A stretch of 35,174 nucleotides of DNA, taken from positions 22,690-57,863 of the forward strand of contig PLGM01000180.1 of NCBI GenBank assembly GCA_003139795.1. Direction: 5' to 3'. This stretch comes from Acidobacteriaceae bacterium (lineage in GTDB: Bacteria; Acidobacteriota; Terriglobia; Terriglobales; Acidobacteriaceae). Both the position numbers and the translations under genes were made by a program. Below, piece by piece: positions 4,501 through 30,550 of this stretch (positions are counted from its first letter, which is position 1; each line of letters opens with the position of its first letter). The notes under the pieces are model-generated. The model was given only the letters and a program-made list of their open reading frames with translations. It had not been told where the DNA came from and ran no database searches.

Positions 4501-4968
4501 TCACTCCTGGCCGCATTCCTGCTCCCACACGCGCACCATCAGATCTCCTGCCGCGTGGCGGAAGGCCACCACCACCGAGTCCTCCATATGCGGCCGGCCC
4601 CGGTATCCCTCCCGCTCCACGGCCGACTCGGGCACGGTCATCGCGCAGGGCCGGGGCAATGAGGACTTGATCATCCCCGCGATCATGTTGGCGATCTCCT
4701 TGGTGGCGTCCAGCGCGTCGGACTCGCCCACCGTTTCCACCGGCTGCATCATCATCGCCGCCGTGGCTTCGTAGGCCAGCGACCCGGCCATTCGCACTTC
4801 GATACGGCCTTTCCACATCCCGGTCAGGGTTACGCAACCAAACAAGTGTCCTTCGCTCACTGAAAACTGCTCCGGAGTCAGCGTAGGCTCCAGCGTCATG
4901 GCCAGCATCTGCTCCCAGAACTGAGCGTTGGCCTTGATCACATTTTGCTGGTCGAGTTGAGCCCGCAT
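4501..4968 (-). CDS. CheX-like CheY-phosphate phosphatase
   Basis: A 155-residue protein of the CheC/CheX phosphatase fold. The segment DALDATKEIANMIAGMIKSS (about 84-103) carries the family motif ExxN (E91, N94), whose side chains remove the phosphate from response-regulator receiver domains. One such motif fits CheX rather than CheC, which has two. No che operon, receptor or flagellar gene is in view, so the partner receiver is unknown; the protein may serve a non-chemotaxis pathway. The ATG at 4968 is preferred over the one at 4983 because GGGAGTGGGG lies just before it and MRAQL fits a cytoplasmic start. It is transcribed away from the stress-protein gene at 5207. Confidence 0.75.
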   Translation of the reverse strand: MRAQLDQQNVIKANAQFWEQMLAMTLEPTLTPEQFSVSEGHLFGCVTLTGMWKGRIEVRMAGSLAYEATAAMMMQPVETVGESDALDATKEIANMIAGMIKSSLPRPCAMTVPESAVEREGYRGRPHMEDSVVVAFRHAAGDLMVRVWEQECGQE

Positions 4969-5119
4969 GCGCCCCACTCCCATCGGGAATCCGGCTAAGA
5001 CTATTTGTTTCTCCTCAACTTATCGGACAGTTCTCTGAATGCCTTAAGAATCGGCGGCGCGTCTGAGACATCGATCGTCATTGGAGCCGCCTCATCAAGT
5101 TCCGCGCACTCAACGCCCT

Positions 5120-5135
5120 TGTGAGATAAATCACC
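5120..5135. promoter_or_regulatory. CRP-type operator upstream of stress-protein gene
   Basis: TGTGA-GATAAA-TCACC matches the CRP consensus TGTGA-N6-TCACA in nine of ten positions. Its centre is 79 bp upstream of the ATG at 5207. A weak -10 candidate (CATCTT, 5156-5161) lies where class II activation (site centred near -41) would put it. The Crp/Fnr protein encoded at 6360-7073 has a matching recognition helix. Confidence 0.55.
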
Positions 5136-5206
5136 TCCGCGGGTGCGCCCTGGCACATCTTCCTCCCCTTGTTCGGTGCCACTCTGTCCCAAACGAGGTG
5201 TATGCC

Positions 5207-6181
5207 ATGCCGGATTCAGACCCGCATCCGGGCTTTGACCGTTGGACTCACCCGGCCGTCCTCCTCGTCGCCACCGATTTGAGCGACCTGGACCGCCTGA
5301 TGCCGTTTGCCTTTGAACAGGCTGCGCAGGAACAGGCGCGGTTGATTCTCCTGCATGTGCTTTCCCCATCCGCAGCCATGTCGGCCGATGCCGCCGGAAT
5401 GCCATACTACGATCCGGCCGGCGCATTGGACTTTGTCACCAGGACCCTGGAGCCCTGGTGCGAGTTGGCCCGCCAGAAGAACATCGCCTGCGATGCGCTG
5501 GTGCGCGAGGGGCCCCCCGTACAGCAGATTGCAGCCGCTGTTCGCCAGTTCCAGGCTGATCGCCTCCTTCTCGGTACCCGGAGCCGGAGCAAGCTCGGCA
5601 AGTTGCTCCTCGGTTCCGTGGCAGAACAAGTGCTGCGCTCGGTCAACCTCCCGGTCATAACCGTGGGACCCGAGGCTCATCTCCCGGTGCAATTGAGCTC
5701 CCGCGAACGCGTTGTGCTCCATGCCACCACCCTCCGAGAGACCTCTCGCCCGAGCGCGGCACTTGCTTGTCAGATCGCAGCCAGTCAAGGCGCCAGGCTG
5801 GTCCTGCTCCATGTCCTGCCCCCTATGGATGAGCCCACCTCTGACGCAATAGGGCGCAGCGGCCAGCCCGCCAGCCTGGACTCGGCCGCACTCCATGAGC
5901 TGCGCATCCTGGCCGCGGAAACCGGCTCTGGCTGCGCCGCTGCCGTTGAGCCCCATGTGGTGCACGGCAACCCCTCCATCGAGATCCTGGCCGAAGCCTC
6001 GGAGCGCCACGCCAACCTCATTGTCCTCGGCGCCACCCACCGCTCGGCCATCGAAAATCTCACCCGCGACCGCACCGTTTACCGGGTTCTGGCCCATGCC
6101 CGCTGTCCTGTCCTCACCCTCCGCGAACCCCACGCCGATCCGGCCGCCCCCAGGACGGAGCAGTTGGCGATCCATCTTTGA
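5207..6181 (+). CDS. Tandem-domain universal stress protein (UspA family)
   Basis: A 324-residue protein with two UspA domains. Domain 1 (about 15-160) starts with VLLVATDLSD and ends with LLLGTRSRSKLGKLLLGS, close to the ATP-binding pattern G2xG-9x-G(S/T) but with Ser in place of the second Gly. Domain 2 (about 170-305) ends with IVLGATHRSAIE and lacks the full pattern, so it probably does not bind ATP. Such proteins act in the cytoplasm during starvation or low oxygen. The ATG at 5207 is chosen because GAGGTG lies six bases before it and the domain begins soon after. It diverges from the CheX-like gene and faces the Crp/Fnr gene, and has a CRP-type operator upstream. Confidence 0.88.
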   Translation: MPDSDPHPGFDRWTHPAVLLVATDLSDLDRLMPFAFEQAAQEQARLILLHVLSPSAAMSADAAGMPYYDPAGALDFVTRTLEPWCELARQKNIACDALVREGPPVQQIAAAVRQFQADRLLLGTRSRSKLGKLLLGSVAEQVLRSVNLPVITVGPEAHLPVQLSSRERVVLHATTLRETSRPSAALACQIAASQGARLVLLHVLPPMDEPTSDAIGRSGQPASLDSAALHELRILAAETGSGCAAAVEPHVVHGNPSIEILAEASERHANLIVLGATHRSAIENLTRDRTVYRVLAHARCPVLTLREPHADPAAPRTEQLAIHL

Positions 6182-6359
6182 GGGCCGGGCTCTCGATGAA
6201 CCTCATGGGATCGGCTGCAAAACTGGCAATCCGCCCTGGTAGATGCGCCAGCCGGAAAAATGCCGGATGGGCGCAAAAGGGTGCGGATTGTCCCTGAAAA
6301 AGATGGAAACCCGCCCCGGATGTGAAGCGGAATTGGAAAGAAAAGGTCGCAACGAGATG

Positions 6360-7073
6360 CTACGCGGTTAGCCGTTCCAGCTGATCCGGCTTGACGATGG
6401 TCAGGCTGGAGCCCTTGATGGTGATCCACTGGTCGCGGCGAAACTGATTCAGCAGCCGCGTCACGGTCTCCCGCGAGGTACCCGCCATGTTGGCGATCTC
6501 CTCGTGCGTCAGCGCCATCGTAAACCGGATCTCCGGCTTGCCGTTGCCTGTGGCGCGTCCCCAGTCCAGCAACAGACGCGCCAGCCGCCCCGCCGCCGAG
6601 CCCGACAGCGCCAGACGCTTGGCGTCGTGAAACACCGTCAGGTATTCGCCGGAGAGTGATTGCGCCGCATGCATGCTGGCGATGCCGTGACGCCCCAGGA
6701 AGTCCACAAACTCCTGCTTGCGCACCGTCTTCACCTGGCACGGCTCAATGGCCTCGGCCGTCACTTCGTGCGCAACATTGGCCAGAACCGCGCTCAAACC
6801 CATCACATCGCCGGGGCCGGCGATCTTTAAAATCATGGTCTTGCCATCGCGCGAGGTCGAGGAAATCTTCACCTGGCCAAAACAGATCACAAACACGTTC
6901 CGGGCCGGGTCGCCTTCGGTAAACAATTTGGCGCCTCGGGCATGACTCATCATGATCCCGATCCCGTCGTAGTCCTCGAGTGCCTCCGGTGTGAGATTGC
7001 AGAACATCCGCAGATGGCGGTGCTCGCAGTTAATACAATCTTCCGGGGGGTGATGGGGATGGAACGATGCCAT
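6360..7073 (-). CDS. Crp/Fnr-family transcription regulator with FNR-like cysteines
   Basis: A 237-residue regulator: cyclic-nucleotide-binding fold (about 30-150), dimer helix, and winged HTH (about 165-230). The recognition helix reads TSRETVTRLLNQF; R201, E202 and R206 have the spacing of CRP residues R180, E181 and R185 that contact TGTGA half-sites, and differ from the E-x2-SR of FNR. The N-terminus has C13-x2-C16-x8-C25, and C112 lies where FNR has its fourth cluster ligand, so an iron-sulfur or other redox centre is possible, though FNR has x5 rather than x8. The ATG at 7073 puts the Cys region at the N-terminus; no clear ribosome binding site is seen. It is the last gene of a run with a CNBD protein and a stress protein. 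Confidence 0.88.
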   Translation of the reverse strand: MASFHPHHPPEDCINCEHRHLRMFCNLTPEALEDYDGIGIMMSHARGAKLFTEGDPARNVFVICFGQVKISSTSRDGKTMILKIAGPGDVMGLSAVLANVAHEVTAEAIEPCQVKTVRKQEFVDFLGRHGIASMHAAQSLSGEYLTVFHDAKRLALSGSAAGRLARLLLDWGRATGNGKPEIRFTMALTHEEIANMAGTSRETVTRLLNQFRRDQWITIKGSSLTIVKPDQLERLTA

Positions 7074-7200
7074 AGGTTTCCCGAAGGTCAAATTGCAGTA
7101 TAGCGCACTTTGGCTAGGCGCAAGGCAGGGATTCCCGTCAATTTCCGTTGCGGTCCAGGGAAATCCCCGGCACGGAAATTTGTCTGTGCAATACTTCCCC

Positions 7201-7695
7201 CTACGCCGCCGAAGCTCCCGCGCTGCGCCGTGCCTTCGGCATCCGGTTCTGGCAGCTGGCGTCGTAGCCCCGGGAAACCTCCCGGGCAAGTTCTTCCAAC
7301 AGTTGCATCCGCAGCTGCGGATACTGCTGAAATGCCAGGTTCAAAGCTTCCATGGGCAGCAAAAGCACTGATCCCGGCGTTTGCGCGCTCAGGGTGTAGG
7401 TGTGATGCCCATCGCCCAGCGCGGCCGCCAGCTCTACCAGGTCCCCGACGCGCGCCGGCCCCAGCGTCAACCGCGTCTCCAGCCTCTCCGTCCGGCGCAG
7501 AAACCGCCCTGAAACCACCACGTAGAGTCCCCGGCAGGTCCCCGACTGGCGAAAAACAGGCTCCCCAACATCGAAATCGATGCACTGGGCCGCGCTGTTC
7601 AGCAAGTTCCCGGTCGCCGGAGGGCAATCCAGCAACTCTGCCAGTGGATGTGCCTGGACTGCTTCCTTTCGCCCGTATATGGCCACAGGTTCCAT
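7201..7695 (-). CDS. Cyclic-nucleotide-binding-domain protein without HTH
   Basis: A 164-residue protein made almost wholly of a Crp-like effector fold. The stretch DVGEPVFRQSGTCRGLYVVV and the following GRFLRR match the beta-roll (vFrqGd...lYvV..G.v), and a dimer-type helix follows (QLRMQLLEELAREVS). No helix-turn-helix is present; the protein ends in a short basic, Ala-rich tail. It probably senses a ligand or pairs with another regulator, perhaps the adjacent Crp/Fnr protein, but that is inference. Two starts are possible: ATG 7695 with GGGAG nine bases before it, and ATG 7806 with GGAG before it, which would add 37 polar residues of low complexity. I chose 7695. The gene sits between the stress protein and the Crp/Fnr gene on the same strand. 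Confidence 0.75.
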   Translation of the reverse strand: MEPVAIYGRKEAVQAHPLAELLDCPPATGNLLNSAAQCIDFDVGEPVFRQSGTCRGLYVVVSGRFLRRTERLETRLTLGPARVGDLVELAAALGDGHHTYTLSAQTPGSVLLLPMEALNLAFQQYPQLRMQLLEELAREVSRGYDASCQNRMPKARRSAGASAA

Positions 7696-7962
7696 GGTCC
7701 CATCTCCCTTTGTCGCCGCCCGATTTCCCGTCCCGCGGTGCCTGGTGCCTGCATTCACCTGCCGGCCGGTCCTGTGCGAGCTCGTTTGACGCTGCGGATT
7801 TGCCATGATTCGATCTCCATATCCTGCAAATCGCTCCAAATGCAACAAGTTCAGAGAAACGGATTCCAAAAAAACGCATCGTTGAGAGCGGTTGCGGTCA
7901 TTTCTCCCTGCGCCGCCCCATCTCCCCTCCCATGCCAGGCTTCGGCTCCCGCGCGGCCATCG

Positions 7963-8862
7963 CTATCTGGCCTCCACTGGGCTCCGAGCCTCCCGTTGTT
8001 GGCTGGCGGCCACCGGTTCCGGCGGAACGCACAGCACCGGCACGCGAGACCGGGCGAGCAGGGCAAACGCCGTCCCATGCGGTCCCGGGGTTCCGCTGGT
8101 GCGCTTCACCCCGGCCACCAGAATGCTGGGATGGTGCTGGGCGATCGCTGCCGCGATAGCGTCGGACGGGTTGCCGTCCTTCACAATGAAACGCACCGGA
8201 AAACGCCCGCTCGGCTGCACCCCGAACGCCTCCAGCGTGGTCGCGACGGGGTTTAGAAACGCCGAGGCTTCGGCCGGTCCGCGCGCGTGCAACACCAGCA
8301 GCGTGCGATGAAACGTCTCCGCCAGCGAGTATGCCGTGGACACCGCCGCCACCGTTGCCTCGTTCTTCTCCATCGCCAGCAGCACCGGCCCGCCCGGCGC
8401 GGGGCGAAACTCCCCCGCATTCCAGTCCGCCGCCACCGCCAGCACCGGACACGGCGACAGTCGCACCAACTGCTCCGCAATGGAGCCCACAATCACCGGC
8501 CCGGCCCCGCTGAATCCTTTGGTCCCGATTACAATCAGCCCCGCCTCGTATTGCCGGGCCACGTCCACCAGCATCTGCGCCACCGTGCCCTGGCGAATCT
8601 CCGAATGGCTATGAATTCCTTCCCGCATCAGATCGCCGGCAAGCGTGTCCAGCGCCGCCCGCGCCTGTTCGGTCAGCCCCCTCAGCACCCGGCCGGGTAC
8701 CGAATCCACCGCCGCATAGTCCACCGGGTCCAGGCCGTGAGCCAGCACCAGGCGCGCCCCGTATCCGCCAGCCAATTTGCGGGCATATTCCAGCGCCGCT
8801 TCCGACTGGTCCTCCAGATCCGTGGCCACAACGATCGTCTTCATCCTGGCTGCAAAGCTCAT
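7963..8862 (-). CDS. Tandem-domain universal stress protein (UspA family)
   Basis: A 299-residue protein with two Usp domains. Domain 1 (about 5-145) begins KTIVVATDLEDQS and has the intact ATP pattern G2xG-9x-GS in GTKGFSGAGPVIVGS. Domain 2 (about 155-285) ends with LVAGVKRTSGTPGPHG, a degenerate version. The two-domain layout is the same as in the stress protein at 5207-6181, and the two genes bracket the CNBD and Crp/Fnr genes. The ATG at 8862 has a strong AGGAGG seven bases upstream, which decides the start over the ATG at 8880. Two CRP-type palindromes lie 84-121 bp upstream. It is likely the first gene of an operon with the CNBD and Crp/Fnr genes; gaps of 267 bp (or 156 bp with the longer CNBD start) and 127 bp leave room for internal promoters. 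Confidence 0.9.
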   Translation of the reverse strand: MSFAARMKTIVVATDLEDQSEAALEYARKLAGGYGARLVLAHGLDPVDYAAVDSVPGRVLRGLTEQARAALDTLAGDLMREGIHSHSEIRQGTVAQMLVDVARQYEAGLIVIGTKGFSGAGPVIVGSIAEQLVRLSPCPVLAVAADWNAGEFRPAPGGPVLLAMEKNEATVAAVSTAYSLAETFHRTLLVLHARGPAEASAFLNPVATTLEAFGVQPSGRFPVRFIVKDGNPSDAIAAAIAQHHPSILVAGVKRTSGTPGPHGTAFALLARSRVPVLCVPPEPVAASQQREARSPVEAR

Positions 8863-8945
8863 GGATGCCTCCTGACGCACACCGGCGTCCCTCGCTCTTC
8901 ATCCCTGTTGGACTTCGAGTCTGCGCTCCCCATAGACCGGCAGGC

Positions 8946-8961
8946 AGTGACACCATTCACT
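8946..8961. promoter_or_regulatory. CRP-type operator variant (proximal site)
   Basis: AGTGA-CACCAT-TCACT is a perfect palindrome in its five-base arms and differs from TGTGA-N6-TCACA only at the outermost base of each arm. Its centre is 22 bp, two helical turns, from the perfect site at 8968-8983, so two dimers would bind on the same face. It is the nearer site to the stress-protein gene starting at 8862. Confidence 0.5.
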
Positions 8962-8967
8962 CCGTCC

Positions 8968-8983
8968 TGTGATGCGAGTCACA
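8968..8983. promoter_or_regulatory. Perfect CRP-type operator (distal site)
   Basis: TGTGA-TGCGAG-TCACA matches the CRP consensus at all ten specified positions. It lies 106 bp upstream of the stress-protein ATG at 8862 and would be read by the Crp/Fnr protein of the same cluster, giving autoregulation if the genes are one operon. Confidence 0.65.
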
Positions 8984-9093
8984 ATCCACCCCTTGGGCCC
9001 ACCCAACTGCCCGCCCACAGGCGACCCTCCCGCTGGTGGGTGTTGTCGCAAAGGTATACATGCGCGGGCCAAATGCGGTAGCCTTTCCGCGTC

Positions 9094-11670
9094 ATGAAAA
9101 ACTCAAAAAAATCCTCTATTCAATCGATTTCGCCCTTGCGCCTCGCATGTTTTCTCTCCATCCTGTTCGGTTGCGCCCTGACCGCATCCGTCCAGGCCCT
9201 GGCACAAGCGCCCGTGCCCGCCTCGCCTGCCATCGAGGCCAAAGCCCACGCCTGGCTGGCCAAACTTACTCTCGAGCAAAAGATCGAGCTCATCGGCGGC
9301 GTCGATGACATGTACACCCATGCCGCCCCCGCCGTCGACCTGCCACGCTTCAAGATGTCCGACGCCTCCGTCGGCGTGCGCACCTGGGGACCCACCACCG
9401 CCTATGCCGGCGGCGTGGCGCTGGCCGCCACATGGGACCCGGCCCTGGCGCGCAAGGTCGGCGAGAGCCTCGGCAAGGATGCCCGCGCACGCAGCGTCAA
9501 TTTCCTGCTCGGTCCCGGCGTCAACATTGCCCGCTCGCCCGTGGCCGGCCGCAACTTCGAGTACCTCTCGGAAGACCCCTATTTGAACTCCATCCTGGTG
9601 GTTCCATTCATCGAGGGCGTCCAGTCCCAGGGCGTCATCGCCACCGTCAAGCACTTTGCCTTGAATGATCAGGAGTACAACCGCCACAACGTCAGCTCCG
9701 ACGCCGACGAGCGCACCATGCGCGAGATCTACCTGCCGTCCTTCGAGGCCGCCGTCACCAAGGGCCACGTCGACGCCGTCATGGACTCCTACAACCTCAT
9801 CAACGGCGTTCATGCCACCCAGAACGAGTTTCTCAACCTCAAGGTGCTCAAGGGCGAGTGGGGTTTCCAGGGCATTCTCATGTCCGACTGGGACGCCACC
9901 TACGACACGGTGGGCGCGGCCAACAACGGCCTCGATCTCGAGATGCCCAGCCCACGCTTCATGAACCCCAAGGGTCTGCTGGCCGCGGTCAAGGACGGAT
10001 CGGTCACCGAATCCACCATTGACGACAAGGTGCTGCGCATCTTCCGCACCGAGCTCCGCTACGGCTTCCTCGACCGTCCCCAATTCGACCCTGCCGACTC
10101 CACCTACTCCGTGGCCGCTCGCGCCGTTGTCCTTGAGGGCGCCCGCGAGAGCATCACCCTGCTCAAGAACGCGGGGCCCCTGCTCCCGCTCGACCCGGCC
10201 AAAATCAAGACCATCGCCGTCATCGGACCCAACGCCTGGCCGGCCGTCACCGGCGGCGGAGGCTCCTCTGAGGCCCAGGCCTTCGAGCCGGTCTCAACCG
10301 TCACCGGCATCGCCAACCTGCTCGGTCCCGACGTGCATGTCCTCTACAGCCGCGGACTGCCGGAGATGAACGATGTCTTCCAGGGCACACACTGGGAGGG
10401 CGGCGTGAAAGTTGCCACTTATCCCAACAAGGACTTTACCGGCATGCCGGAAACCACCACCCCCTCGAACATCGCCGACTACAAGCAGGAATGGTGGGGG
10501 CCCGAGGACAAGACTCCCCGCAGCATTCGCTACACAACCTCTTTCAAGGCGGCCAAAGCGGGCAAGTACCTGGTTCTGGCCGCAGCCTCCGGCAACGACG
10601 AATACAAGCTCGCCATCGACGGCAAACCGCTGCTCTCTCCCCCTCACGTCGAAGGTCAGGCGCCGCTCTTCTGGACCATCGATCTGAAGGCCGGCCAGAC
10701 CATCAACGTGGTCGCCGACTACCTGCCCGGCTTTGTAGGCGTCCGCTTCGGGCTGGGAATCGCCTATGAGCCCGACCTGGTCGCCGCCGAAGCAAAGACC
10801 TACGCCGCCGCCGCGGATGTGGTGGTAGTCGCCGCCGGCTTCAACCCTGGCACCGAGAGCGAGGGCCTCGACCGCACCTTCGAACTGCCCTGGGGACAGG
10901 ACGCTCTGATTGAAGCCGTGGCAGCCGCCAATCCACACACCATCGTTACCCTCAACGGCGGCGGCGGCATGGATACCCGCCGCTGGCTCGACAAGGTTCC
11001 CGCGCTGCTCCACACCTGGTACCCCGGCCAGGAGGGCGGCACTGCGGTAGCGGAGGTCCTCTTCGGCAAGCACAATCCCGAAGGCAAACTCCCCGTCAGC
11101 TTCGACCGCAGTTGGGACGAGAACCCTTCGTTCGCCTACTACTATCCCATCAAAGGCGCCGATACCGCGCTGCACGTCATCGAACCCGGCAAGCCGCCGG
11201 TCGATTACGTCATTCCCCACGTGAAGTACGGCGACCGCCTCATGGTCGGCTACCGCTACTGGACCACCACCGGGAAGCACCCCCTCTATCCCTTCGGCTT
11301 CGGCCTCAGCTACACCACCTTCAGCTTCTCCAAACTCCAGGCCCCTGCAACCGCCGCTTCCGGCTCAGCAGTCCCTGTTAGCTTCGACGTCACCAACACC
11401 GGCAGCGTGGCTGGTGCTGAAGTGGCTCAGCTCTACGTCTCCGACCCCTCCGCCAAAGTCACCCGCCCCGAGCGCGAATTGAAGGGCTTCGAAAAGGTCC
11501 GTCTGGCTCCCGGCGAAACCAGGCATGTAACCCTCAACCTCGACGCCCGCTCCTTCAGCTATTGGGACGAGGCGTCCCACAAATGGACCATCGACCCCGG
11601 CAAGTTCGTCATCCGCGTCGGCGACTCCAGTGAACACACGCCGTTGCACGCCGACCTGACGCTGAACTAG
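9094..11670 (+). CDS. Secreted glycoside hydrolase family 3 beta-glucosidase with PA14-like insert
   Basis: An 858-residue GH3 enzyme. A basic start and hydrophobic stretch (about 14-37, ending in QALAQA) is a Sec signal, so it acts in the periplasm or outside. The TIM-barrel domain (about 50-330) carries KHFALND (186-192), and ILMSDWDATY (261-270) with D265 as the expected nucleophile. The second domain (about 345-425 and 560-750) has GTESEGLDRTFELP, whose Glu is the likely acid/base. Between them, about 430-560, is an insert resembling a PA14 carbohydrate-binding domain. A fibronectin-III-like domain (about 770-855) closes the protein. It would release glucose or related sugars from beta-linked oligosaccharides. 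No good ribosome binding site precedes the ATG; a TATACA box at 9055-9060 is a possible -10. Confidence 0.9.
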   Translation: MKNSKKSSIQSISPLRLACFLSILFGCALTASVQALAQAPVPASPAIEAKAHAWLAKLTLEQKIELIGGVDDMYTHAAPAVDLPRFKMSDASVGVRTWGPTTAYAGGVALAATWDPALARKVGESLGKDARARSVNFLLGPGVNIARSPVAGRNFEYLSEDPYLNSILVVPFIEGVQSQGVIATVKHFALNDQEYNRHNVSSDADERTMREIYLPSFEAAVTKGHVDAVMDSYNLINGVHATQNEFLNLKVLKGEWGFQGILMSDWDATYDTVGAANNGLDLEMPSPRFMNPKGLLAAVKDGSVTESTIDDKVLRIFRTELRYGFLDRPQFDPADSTYSVAARAVVLEGARESITLLKNAGPLLPLDPAKIKTIAVIGPNAWPAVTGGGGSSEAQAFEPVSTVTGIANLLGPDVHVLYSRGLPEMNDVFQGTHWEGGVKVATYPNKDFTGMPETTTPSNIADYKQEWWGPEDKTPRSIRYTTSFKAAKAGKYLVLAAASGNDEYKLAIDGKPLLSPPHVEGQAPLFWTIDLKAGQTINVVADYLPGFVGVRFGLGIAYEPDLVAAEAKTYAAAADVVVVAAGFNPGTESEGLDRTFELPWGQDALIEAVAAANPHTIVTLNGGGGMDTRRWLDKVPALLHTWYPGQEGGTAVAEVLFGKHNPEGKLPVSFDRSWDENPSFAYYYPIKGADTALHVIEPGKPPVDYVIPHVKYGDRLMVGYRYWTTTGKHPLYPFGFGLSYTTFSFSKLQAPATAASGSAVPVSFDVTNTGSVAGAEVAQLYVSDPSAKVTRPERELKGFEKVRLAPGETRHVTLNLDARSFSYWDEASHKWTIDPGKFVIRVGDSSEHTPLHADLTLN

Positions 11671-14714: not shown

Positions 14715-15035
14715 CTATAACCCGAAAAACCCACGCAAAGCCTCGTTCACGGCCTGCAAAGTGGCAGCGTCCACCTGCCCGATCCGCTCCCCCAGCTTGA
14801 CGCGCTGCACGGTCGTTGCTTTGTCCACCATGATCTGCGAGACGACACGCAGCCCCGTGGCCCTGCCGGCATTCACCGGGACCCGAAAGAGGGGCGCATC
14901 GTGGACTTCGCTGGTCAGGGGCAGCACAATCACCGACGGATGCCCGTCGAACGCGTCGGCCTGCACAATCAGAGCCGGTCGCGGCTTGCCATAATCCCCC
15001 GAAACAGCCACGGTTACCAGGTCGCCGCGCTTCAT
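14715..15035 (-). CDS. MazF/PemK-family mRNA interferase toxin
   Basis: A 106-residue toxin. MKRGDLVTVAVSGDYGKPRP at the N-terminus and ALIVQAD match the MazF fold, in which the conserved GD and KPRPALIVQ segments form the RNA-binding surface. LPLTSE, PLFRVPV and SQIMVDKATTV follow in the family order. MazF toxins cleave mRNA at short sequence motifs and stop growth. The ATG overlaps the end of the upstream antitoxin gene by four bases (ATGA type), the usual coupling in type II toxin-antitoxin operons. Length and motifs appear complete, so it is likely active unless neutralised by its partner. Confidence 0.9.
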   Translation of the reverse strand: MKRGDLVTVAVSGDYGKPRPALIVQADAFDGHPSVIVLPLTSEVHDAPLFRVPVNAGRATGLRVVSQIMVDKATTVQRVKLGERIGQVDAATLQAVNEALRGFFGL

Positions 15036-15304
15036 TGGCCGCTTCCGAGAGCGCTAACGTCCTGAATCCAGCGCATCACTTCCGTCTCATCCTCTGAACC
15101 GGCGATCAGTTGCGACTGGCGGCGTGCCTCGGCGGCGAAACGCCGCTGCCGCGCCTCGTCCACGTAGCTGCGCATCAATCCGCGCAGCACCTCGGAGGCC
15201 GTCCGGTCGTCCGCCTCGACCGCCTCCACAAACTCCGCCTTGAGCCCGGCGTCAATGCGCAGGTTCAACGTCGATTCCCTTGGACGAGCAATTGTCTGGG
15301 GCAT
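15032..15304 (-). CDS. Ribbon-helix-helix antitoxin partner of MazF
   Basis: A 90-residue protein with an N-terminal ribbon-helix-helix domain: STLNLRIDAGLKAEFVEAVE supplies the strand and first helix, and DDRTASEVLRGLMRSYVDEA the second helix. The C-terminal half (about 50-90) is charged and probably wraps the toxin. RHH antitoxins bind the promoter of their own operon and repress it. The ATG at 15304 is preceded by AGGAG (15312-15316 on this strand). It lies upstream of and overlaps the toxin gene. An array of TACAT-type half-sites lies just upstream. Confidence 0.85.
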   Translation of the reverse strand: MPQTIARPRESTLNLRIDAGLKAEFVEAVEADDRTASEVLRGLMRSYVDEARQRRFAAEARRQSQLIAGSEDETEVMRWIQDVSALGSGQ

Positions 15305-29841: not shown

Positions 29842-30294
29842 CTACACCGGAAACCCTCCCGTAATGTAGCCCTGCAACGCCTGAATGGTTTCCGCCTGAC
29901 CGGTGATCACCCACTTCACCAGGTCGCCAATCGACACCAATCCCACCACCGCGTCACCCTGCAACACCGGCAGATGGCGAACACGGTCTTGGGTCATCAG
30001 GGCCATGCATTCATCCACGGTGTGCTGCGGACTCACGAAGACAACCGGGCTGGTCATGATCTGCCGCACCTGGGTCTCTTTGGAATGGTGGCCCATCAGC
30101 ACGCCTTTGCGCGCGTAGTCGCGCTCCGACAGGATGCCGACAAGCCGGTGGTCGGAAACGACCAGCAAGGCGCCGATATCGTGCTCAGCCATCATCTGGA
30201 TCGCTTCATAGACTGACCGCTCAGGCGCTATCGACAGGACCCTGTTTTCTCCCTTGCCTTTCAGCAGCAACCCAATCGTGTCGGTGATCTTCAT
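29842..30294 (-). CDS. Two-CBS-domain protein
   Basis: A 150-residue protein with two CBS domains. CBS1 (about 10-75) includes [20 protein letters not shown] and ends in [12 protein letters not shown]2 (about 80-140) includes [20 protein letters not shown] and ends in [13 protein letters not shown]. Tandem CBS units bind adenosine nucleotides or other ligands at their interface and serve as energy or redox sensors. No catalytic domain is fused. GGAGG lies just before ATG 30294. A perfect palindrome lies 27 bp upstream (30321-30332). The 257-bp gap after it toward 29585 shows no gene that I can support. Confidence 0.85.
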
Positions 30295-30320
30295 CGGAAC
30301 CTCCTCGCCCTTCGCAGCCA

Positions 30321-30332
30321 CATACCGGTATG
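30321..30332. promoter_or_regulatory. Palindrome upstream of the CBS gene
   Basis: CATACCGGTATG is a perfect 12-bp palindrome whose near edge is 27 bp before the CBS ATG at 30294. It could be an operator or part of the leader. No promoter boxes of good quality were found around it. Confidence 0.3.
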
Positions 30333-30550
30333 CGCATCCCATCCCCGCTGGCCTTTATCCTCGCGGAACAGCAGTATATCTCGATTCGTGCACAGCAGTG
30401 CCGGCTGCCTCATCCTTGCAATTGCTGTTCGAGCAAAAGACTATCGCGAGGGTGGGATACCGTCAAACCAAACCAGGAAAGCCCAAACATGTCCAGCCCG
30501 TTTACCCGCCTGCCCTGGCTTTGCTGCATCCATTCGAAGAGAATGAGCAT

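Follow-up and report, generated by a model that had tools for sequence, protein, structure and literature searches.

FNR of Escherichia coli ligates its [4Fe-4S] cluster by C20, C23, C29 and C122 and has a recognition helix of the E-x2-S-R type; for both CRP and FNR, an activator position near -41.5/-42.5 (class II) is established. FNR-type sites read TTGAT-N4-ATCAA (PMC5398030), and genes of universal stress proteins (Usp) have been described as targets of FNR-type regulators in other bacteria (PMC8509486, PMC5398030). In Acidobacterium capsulatum, several usp genes are upregulated when O2 drops from 10 to 0.1 μmol/l, with 7- and 56-fold increases for two of these genes; cydAB is also upregulated at 0.1 μmol/l O2 (PMC11636273). 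The words "Fnr" and "Crp" are absent from the main text of that paper. The window analysed here, i.e., the whole stretch of 35,174 nucleotides from an Acidobacteriaceae bacterium (GenBank contig PLGM01000180.1), contains two genes of tandem-domain Usp proteins, usp1 and usp2, between which a Crp/Fnr regulator gene and a gene coding for a protein with a Crp-type sensor domain that lacks a helix-turn-helix (HTH) are located. Comparison with relatives suggests that the regulator is FNR-like and likely activates both usp genes as well as a wider, predicted low-oxygen energy regulon via conserved TGTGA-N6-TCACA sites.

Conserved sites before usp1 and usp2

Of 489 related loci retrieved via the regulator, the best 80 were analysed, some of them truncated at contig ends; usp2 orthologues (at least 45% identity) are present in 61 of the 80 loci, the HTH-less gene in 64, usp1 orthologues in 32, and all three in 29. 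The motif TGTGA-N6-TCACA occurs at ≤1 mismatch in the promoters of all 60 usp2 orthologues with enough sequence (44 perfect), while the best of 29 control palindromes with permuted half-sites reached 3 in the same promoters. Upstream of usp1, 23 of 31 orthologues have the site at ≤1 mismatch (4 perfect; best control, 2); seven of the others show two mismatches and one shows three. These counts leave out usp genes of <45% identity, with which the totals are 67/68 (usp2) and 37/45 (usp1). In the usp2 promoter alignment, the half-sites reach up to 2 bits, the spacer is variable, and positions ahead of the element carry about 0 bits. Among the usp loci of the bacterium's own genome, 4 of 13 contain the site (best control, 1), based on automatically picked open reading frames (ORFs), at least two of which (L028, L037) are doubtful.

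Judged from these comparisons, the TGTGA-N6-TCACA sites before the usp genes are under selection. Their retention in relatives is decisive, complemented by the genome-scale excess described below; window statistics do not contribute, since the window alone contains 7 matches at ≤2 mismatches, compared to 8.5 ± 3.0 in shuffled sequences, i.e., no enrichment. A previous sequence-only reading had noted palindromes before both stress-protein genes and expected the motif near usp genes of related genomes, and both points are borne out. Its placement of the sites was right as well, but the element is longer than assumed, and the proximal half of the usp1 element was missed. The gene layout it described agrees with the profile matches. 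The features are as follows:

5120-5135, plus strand: distal consensus-like site of usp1, TGTGAGATAAATCACC, one mismatch to TGTGA-N6-TCACA, centre about -64.5 from the inferred start
5142-5157, plus strand: proximal palindrome of usp1, GGTGCGCCCTGGCACA, core GTGC-N6-GCAC, exactly 22 bp past the distal site, centre about -42.5
5180-5185, plus strand: -10-like hexamer of usp1, CACTCT, with TG two bases ahead, at the [TCG]ANNNT spacing seen in relatives; inferred start near 5192
5207-6181, plus strand: usp1, tandem-domain universal stress protein, 324 aa, PF00582 in two stretches (E 1.8e-42)
6360-7073, minus strand: Crp/Fnr regulator, 237 aa, PF00027 (cNMP_binding), PF13545 (HTH_Crp_2) and PF00325, all above cut-off
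7201-7695, minus strand: HTH-less protein with Crp-type sensor domain, 164 aa, PF00027 only
7963-8862, minus strand: usp2, tandem-domain universal stress protein, 299 aa, PF00582 in two stretches (E 1.3e-33)
8918-8923, minus strand: -10-like hexamer of usp2, CAGACT, at the [TCG]ANNNT spacing seen in relatives; inferred start near 8911
8946-8961, minus strand: proximal palindrome of usp2, AGTGAATGGTGTCACT, core GTGA-N6-TCAC, two mismatches to TGTGA-N6-TCACA, centre about -42.5
8968-8983, minus strand: distal consensus site of usp2, TGTGACTCGCATCACA, perfect TGTGA-N6-TCACA, centre about -64.5

The double element is conserved. Exactly 22 bp downstream of the distal site, the GTGA-N6-TCAC core recurs without mismatch in 48 of the 60 usp2 promoters, with one mismatch in 10 and with two in another, and is missing from the last. 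The corresponding position of the usp1 promoters holds GTGC-N6-GCAC or a near variant, with GTG-N8-CAC in 21 of 23 and one mismatch in the other 2. The spaced pattern GTGA-N6-TCAC-N8-GTGA-N6-TCAC is found once in the own genome, at usp2, and in 20 copies in 19 of 41 genomes, versus none of the reversed pattern; all 19 belong to the 25 genomes of the window's genus. The arrangement is repeated at four distant loci (L118-L121), whose usp genes are different ones (29-36% identical): each of the five promoters inspected is of the double type, the proximal core being of the GTGC type in four and GTGA in one; locus L117 has a single site at class II spacing.

A divergent GH3 gene (9094) was considered as the owner of the 8968 site. 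It was ruled out by the -10-like hexamer, which faces usp2, and the site persists where no GH3 gene was found alongside (e.g., L045, L047, L048).

Sites and promoters beyond the cluster

The own genome contains 12 perfect TGTGA-N6-TCACA sites, but none of the reversed motif (114 versus 46 at ≤1 mismatch). The perfect sites are associated with usp2; ccmF; a NuoL-like gene with divergent hypF; the gene of a hydrogenase small subunit; the gene of a protein with cytochrome c and bd-like parts; a cytochrome c554-like gene ahead of nrfD; reg2, which codes for a second FNR-like regulator (L009 7689-8513, contig C289; 39% identical to the window regulator); cydA with a divergent protoporphyrinogen oxidase gene; a TPR/GH31 pair; and an ARMT1-like/FAD oxidoreductase pair; of the remaining two, one falls within an OmpA-like gene and the other is close to an ion channel gene. 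A self-contained cluster, as the sequence-only reading had it, is not supported, because 11 of the 12 perfect sites lie elsewhere, several of them at genes for hydrogenase, cytochrome bd, cytochrome c maturation and the second Crp/Fnr protein. That reading's notion of a stress or energy regulon is supported in so far as the sites are real, belong to the usp genes and would suit a regulator of this type.

A search of the own genome for the oriented site (≤1 mismatch) plus hexamer pattern gave 25 matches, compared to 1 for the control. Among the 23 inspected (all except L276 and L281), 17 are located ahead of an ORF and 5 within genes, and for 1 no ORF was called. Family searches identified phosphoketolase, H+-pyrophosphatase, a CcsA-like assembly protein and GAPDH as possible targets, besides a penicillin-binding-type transpeptidase, an acyl-CoA dehydrogenase-like protein, a weak HipA-like match and unnamed proteins; hydrogenase genes are also located downstream of this pattern. 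The phosphoketolase gene resides on the window's own contig, C64, where a one-mismatch site and a -10-like hexamer (L267 1501-1544) show class II spacing.

For three targets outside the cluster, conservation was examined in relatives: the site occurs at ≤1 mismatch in 17/17 promoters of hyaA (11 perfect), 22/22 of reg2 (2 perfect) and 11/18 of cydA (3 perfect), with a best control of 2. The counts for these targets, including those for the hexamer given below, cover loci other than the hyaA pieces L169 and L181 and those whose upstream DNA is short or whose match comes late. In 21 genomes with an orthologue of the regulator (at least 84% identity), 219 perfect sites face 12 of the reversed motif; in 20 genomes in which no such orthologue was detected, the numbers are 50 and 11, of which 17 and 0 stem from two genomes (G016 and G017) that both carry the double site. 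Within the wordings tried and among non-subscription papers, no literature on an acidobacterial regulon of this kind was recognised.

Among promoters having the site at ≤1 mismatch, a [TCG]ANNNT hexamer is located 59-60 bases past the start of the distal site in 22/23 (usp1) and 59/60 (usp2) cases, compared to at most 5 and 14, respectively, at any other offset pair. The distance is 37-38 bases at hyaA (17/17), reg2 (18/19) and cydA (7/11), with at most 6, 7 and 3 at other offsets. Taken as the -10 element, the hexamer would put the centre of a palindrome at -41.5 or -42.5 from the presumed start in all five promoter groups. The location of the hexamer would place the proximal palindrome of the usp promoters, which deviates from the consensus, at the class II position near -42 and the distal consensus site, 22 bp farther out, near -64, whereas at hyaA, cydA and reg2 the consensus site itself would be near -42. 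A scan of positions 4950-9150 did not find a consensus sigma-70 promoter, which would fit a weak, activator-dependent -10 element but proves nothing.

Autoregulation, also part of the sequence-only reading, did not hold up as a conserved, direct feature. In the 250 bp upstream of the regulator start, a site (≤1 mismatch) occurs in no more than 7 of the 80 related loci, and the stretch from the usp2 end to the regulator contains one in 8 of 61 loci, compared to 9 for one permuted control motif. In the window itself, the DNA ahead of the regulator contains TATACT but no site at ≤1 mismatch, and RNA folding of it revealed nothing notable (z -1.44). Read-through from usp2 into the regulator gene is conceivable.

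The regulator and other candidate readers of the sites

The window regulator combines a sensor domain of the cyclic nucleotide-binding type with a Crp-type HTH, as is typical of the Crp/Fnr superfamily, and among the matches listed it is closest to proteins of Acidobacteriaceae metagenome-assembled genomes (MAGs), Terracidiphilus and Occallatibacter. Since its recognition helix reads T-S-R-E-T-V-T-R, the R-E-x3-R helix claimed previously is correct; helix and conserved sites are of the CRP type and do not correspond to the DNA recognition of E. coli FNR. Besides C112, the protein contains C13, C16, C25 and C64, which are invariant in an alignment of 41 chosen sequences, 27 of them drawn from the 80 related loci. 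The four cysteines are spaced differently from those of FNR, none aligns with C122, and a fold comparison with FNR and CRP ended in a tie. By its cysteines and its lack of cAMP-pocket residues, the regulator looks FNR-like, with a CRP-type DNA half-site.

Another Crp/Fnr protein might be the main reader of the sites, either reg2 or one encoded on contig C394, with the window regulator sharing the sites or controlling something else. The genome encodes 12 Crp/Fnr proteins over cut-off, and among the 10 inspected the R-E-x3-R helix occurs in three (contigs C64, C289 and C394); reg2 retains C-x2-C-x8-C and the equivalent of C64, not C112, and has its own site, conserved in every promoter compared. 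Phylogeny did not separate the two regulators, as genomes with the window regulator mostly carry reg2 as well. However, in 60 loci the sites adjoin the window regulator, and L117-L121, which have other usp genes, again bear the site at a usp gene beside the regulator, so that we consider a different main reader unlikely. Six more Crp/Fnr proteins of the genome (L017-L022) share a different helix, T-R-[SP]-R-V, and appear to form a separate family.

The same regulon might respond to nitric oxide (NO) or redox state rather than oxygen, as NO can be sensed by Fe-S and Crp/Fnr proteins. Regulation of the HcpR type in D. desulfuricans also speaks for this reading. We regard this as quite improbable: the partial list of targets inspected includes no NO-detoxification gene, and cydAB and usp genes respond to oxygen in A. 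capsulatum (PMC11636273).

Control by cAMP, as for Crp of Mycobacterium smegmatis, which binds two TGTGA-N6-TCACA-like sites before cydA (PMC7739888), would match the helix and half-site, and GlxR and mycobacterial CRP are the nearest sequences with a solved structure. It appears very improbable, because cAMP-pocket residues were not found in the alignment (G-E-L...R-T-S-S of GlxR is replaced by G-L-S...H-E-V-T) and the cysteines are invariant across the 41 sequences. The label "CRP-type" fits the DNA half-site, but is not supported as a signal class. A chance origin of the palindromes in intergenic DNA, as the lack of excess in the 35 kb window might suggest, is refuted by the comparison with relatives (sites in 60/60 usp2 promoters amid a variable spacer and flanks near 0 bits, and a genome-wide excess of the motif) and has a negligible probability.

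Both Usp proteins contain PF00582 twice, and their scores with the UspE model are far under cut-off. The ORF of the HTH-less gene spans 7201-7809, with relatives favouring the start at 7695; it is separated from usp2 by 267 bp and from the regulator gene by 127 bp. The HTH-less protein, by eye, lacks an arginine where cAMP binders have one; its C-terminal helix, LLEELAREVSRAY, is conserved, and the protein might act on the regulator as a partner or a brake. Elsewhere in the window, a small protein (29842-30342, minus strand) matched several CBS-domain-bearing families, all under cut-off, and two short overlapping ORFs (14715-15304, minus strand) look toxin-antitoxin-like by eye.

Proposed control and comparison with known systems

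We propose that upon falling oxygen, the predicted signal, the FNR-like regulator would acquire an iron-sulfur cluster ligated by C13, C16, C25 and either C64 or C112, dimerise and bind TGTGA-N6-TCACA. At hyaA, cydA and reg2, the single consensus site near -42 would allow class II contact with RNA polymerase. At usp1 and usp2, two abutting dimers would be required, because the palindrome at -42 is the weaker one and the strong site lies 22 bp farther out, so that the Usp genes would be switched on only at a high level of active regulator. The observation behind the sequence-only reading holds, on stronger evidence than was claimed for it. Of the original interpretation, a real stress and energy regulon at the usp genes remains, but not its self-contained and autoregulated nature or the CRP-type signal; instead, the regulon is spread over the genome, is probably controlled by oxygen, and is not autoregulated in a conserved way.

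A tentative variant, possible rather than probable, is a two-protein gate in which the window regulator occupies the distal site and reg2, its own target, the proximal palindrome at -42. This would form a feed-forward loop, with stress proteins produced only in lasting oxygen lack and single-site respiration genes responding at once. A second FNR-like paralogue is present in 8 of 12 genomes compared, namely four close reg2 orthologues (79-82%) and four proteins related to the window regulator at 48-50%, whose helix, T-T-R-E-T-V-T-R, resembles that of reg2. In each of these 8, a usp gene beside the regulator carries the double element; in the 4 genomes with only one such protein, there is either a single site (L117) or, next to the regulator, no usp orthologue (L109, L112, L116). 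Given the relatedness of the 12 genomes, whose completeness is not stated, this correlation is only a lead.

Soil and peat, habitats with fluctuating oxygen, harbour abundant Acidobacteria, and Terracidiphilus MAGs from peat encode group 1c and 1d uptake hydrogenases (PMC9599518). A candidate regulator, base-exact sites and predicted targets (hydrogenase, cytochrome bd, cytochrome c maturation, phosphoketolase, H+-pyrophosphatase and a second regulator) can now be named, and the conserved double site with its non-consensus proximal half is a possible reason for Usp genes responding unlike respiration genes.

With ArcR of the Staphylococcus aureus ACME, described as an oxygen-sensitive Crp/Fnr regulator, the system shares the TGTGA-N6-TCACA motif (PMC5452487); ArcR targets arginine catabolism, however, with no Usp. 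Crp (MSMEG_6189) of M. smegmatis uses the same motif, twice before cydA (PMC7739888), but is a cAMP receptor, and the quoted coordinates give a distance of 28 bp between its two sites. FnrL of Dinoroseobacter shibae controls several usp genes and genes of further Crp/Fnr regulators (PMC5398030), and the conserved site before reg2 would make a cascade like FnrL-Dnr; the D. shibae sites, in contrast, are of the TTGAT type, within a denitrification network. Anr of Pseudomonas aeruginosa, an oxygen-sensing FNR homologue, is required at low oxygen for genes of tandem-domain Usp proteins (PMC8509486), but the Anr box is FNR-like (PMC5398030), and the accessible text mentions no double site with strong distal and weak proximal halves for Anr targets. 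FNR of E. coli and Aliivibrio fischeri differs by its cysteine pattern, the window regulator having C-x2-C-x8-C and another fourth cysteine, and by its helix and TTGAT-N4-ATCAA sites in place of R-E-x3-R and TGTGA-N6-TCACA. It shares the Crp/Fnr fold and N-terminal cysteines (26% identity over 227 residues), the fold match reaches residue 10, and in E. coli, too, fnr adjoins a usp gene, uspE, which codes for a Usp protein of 316 aa.

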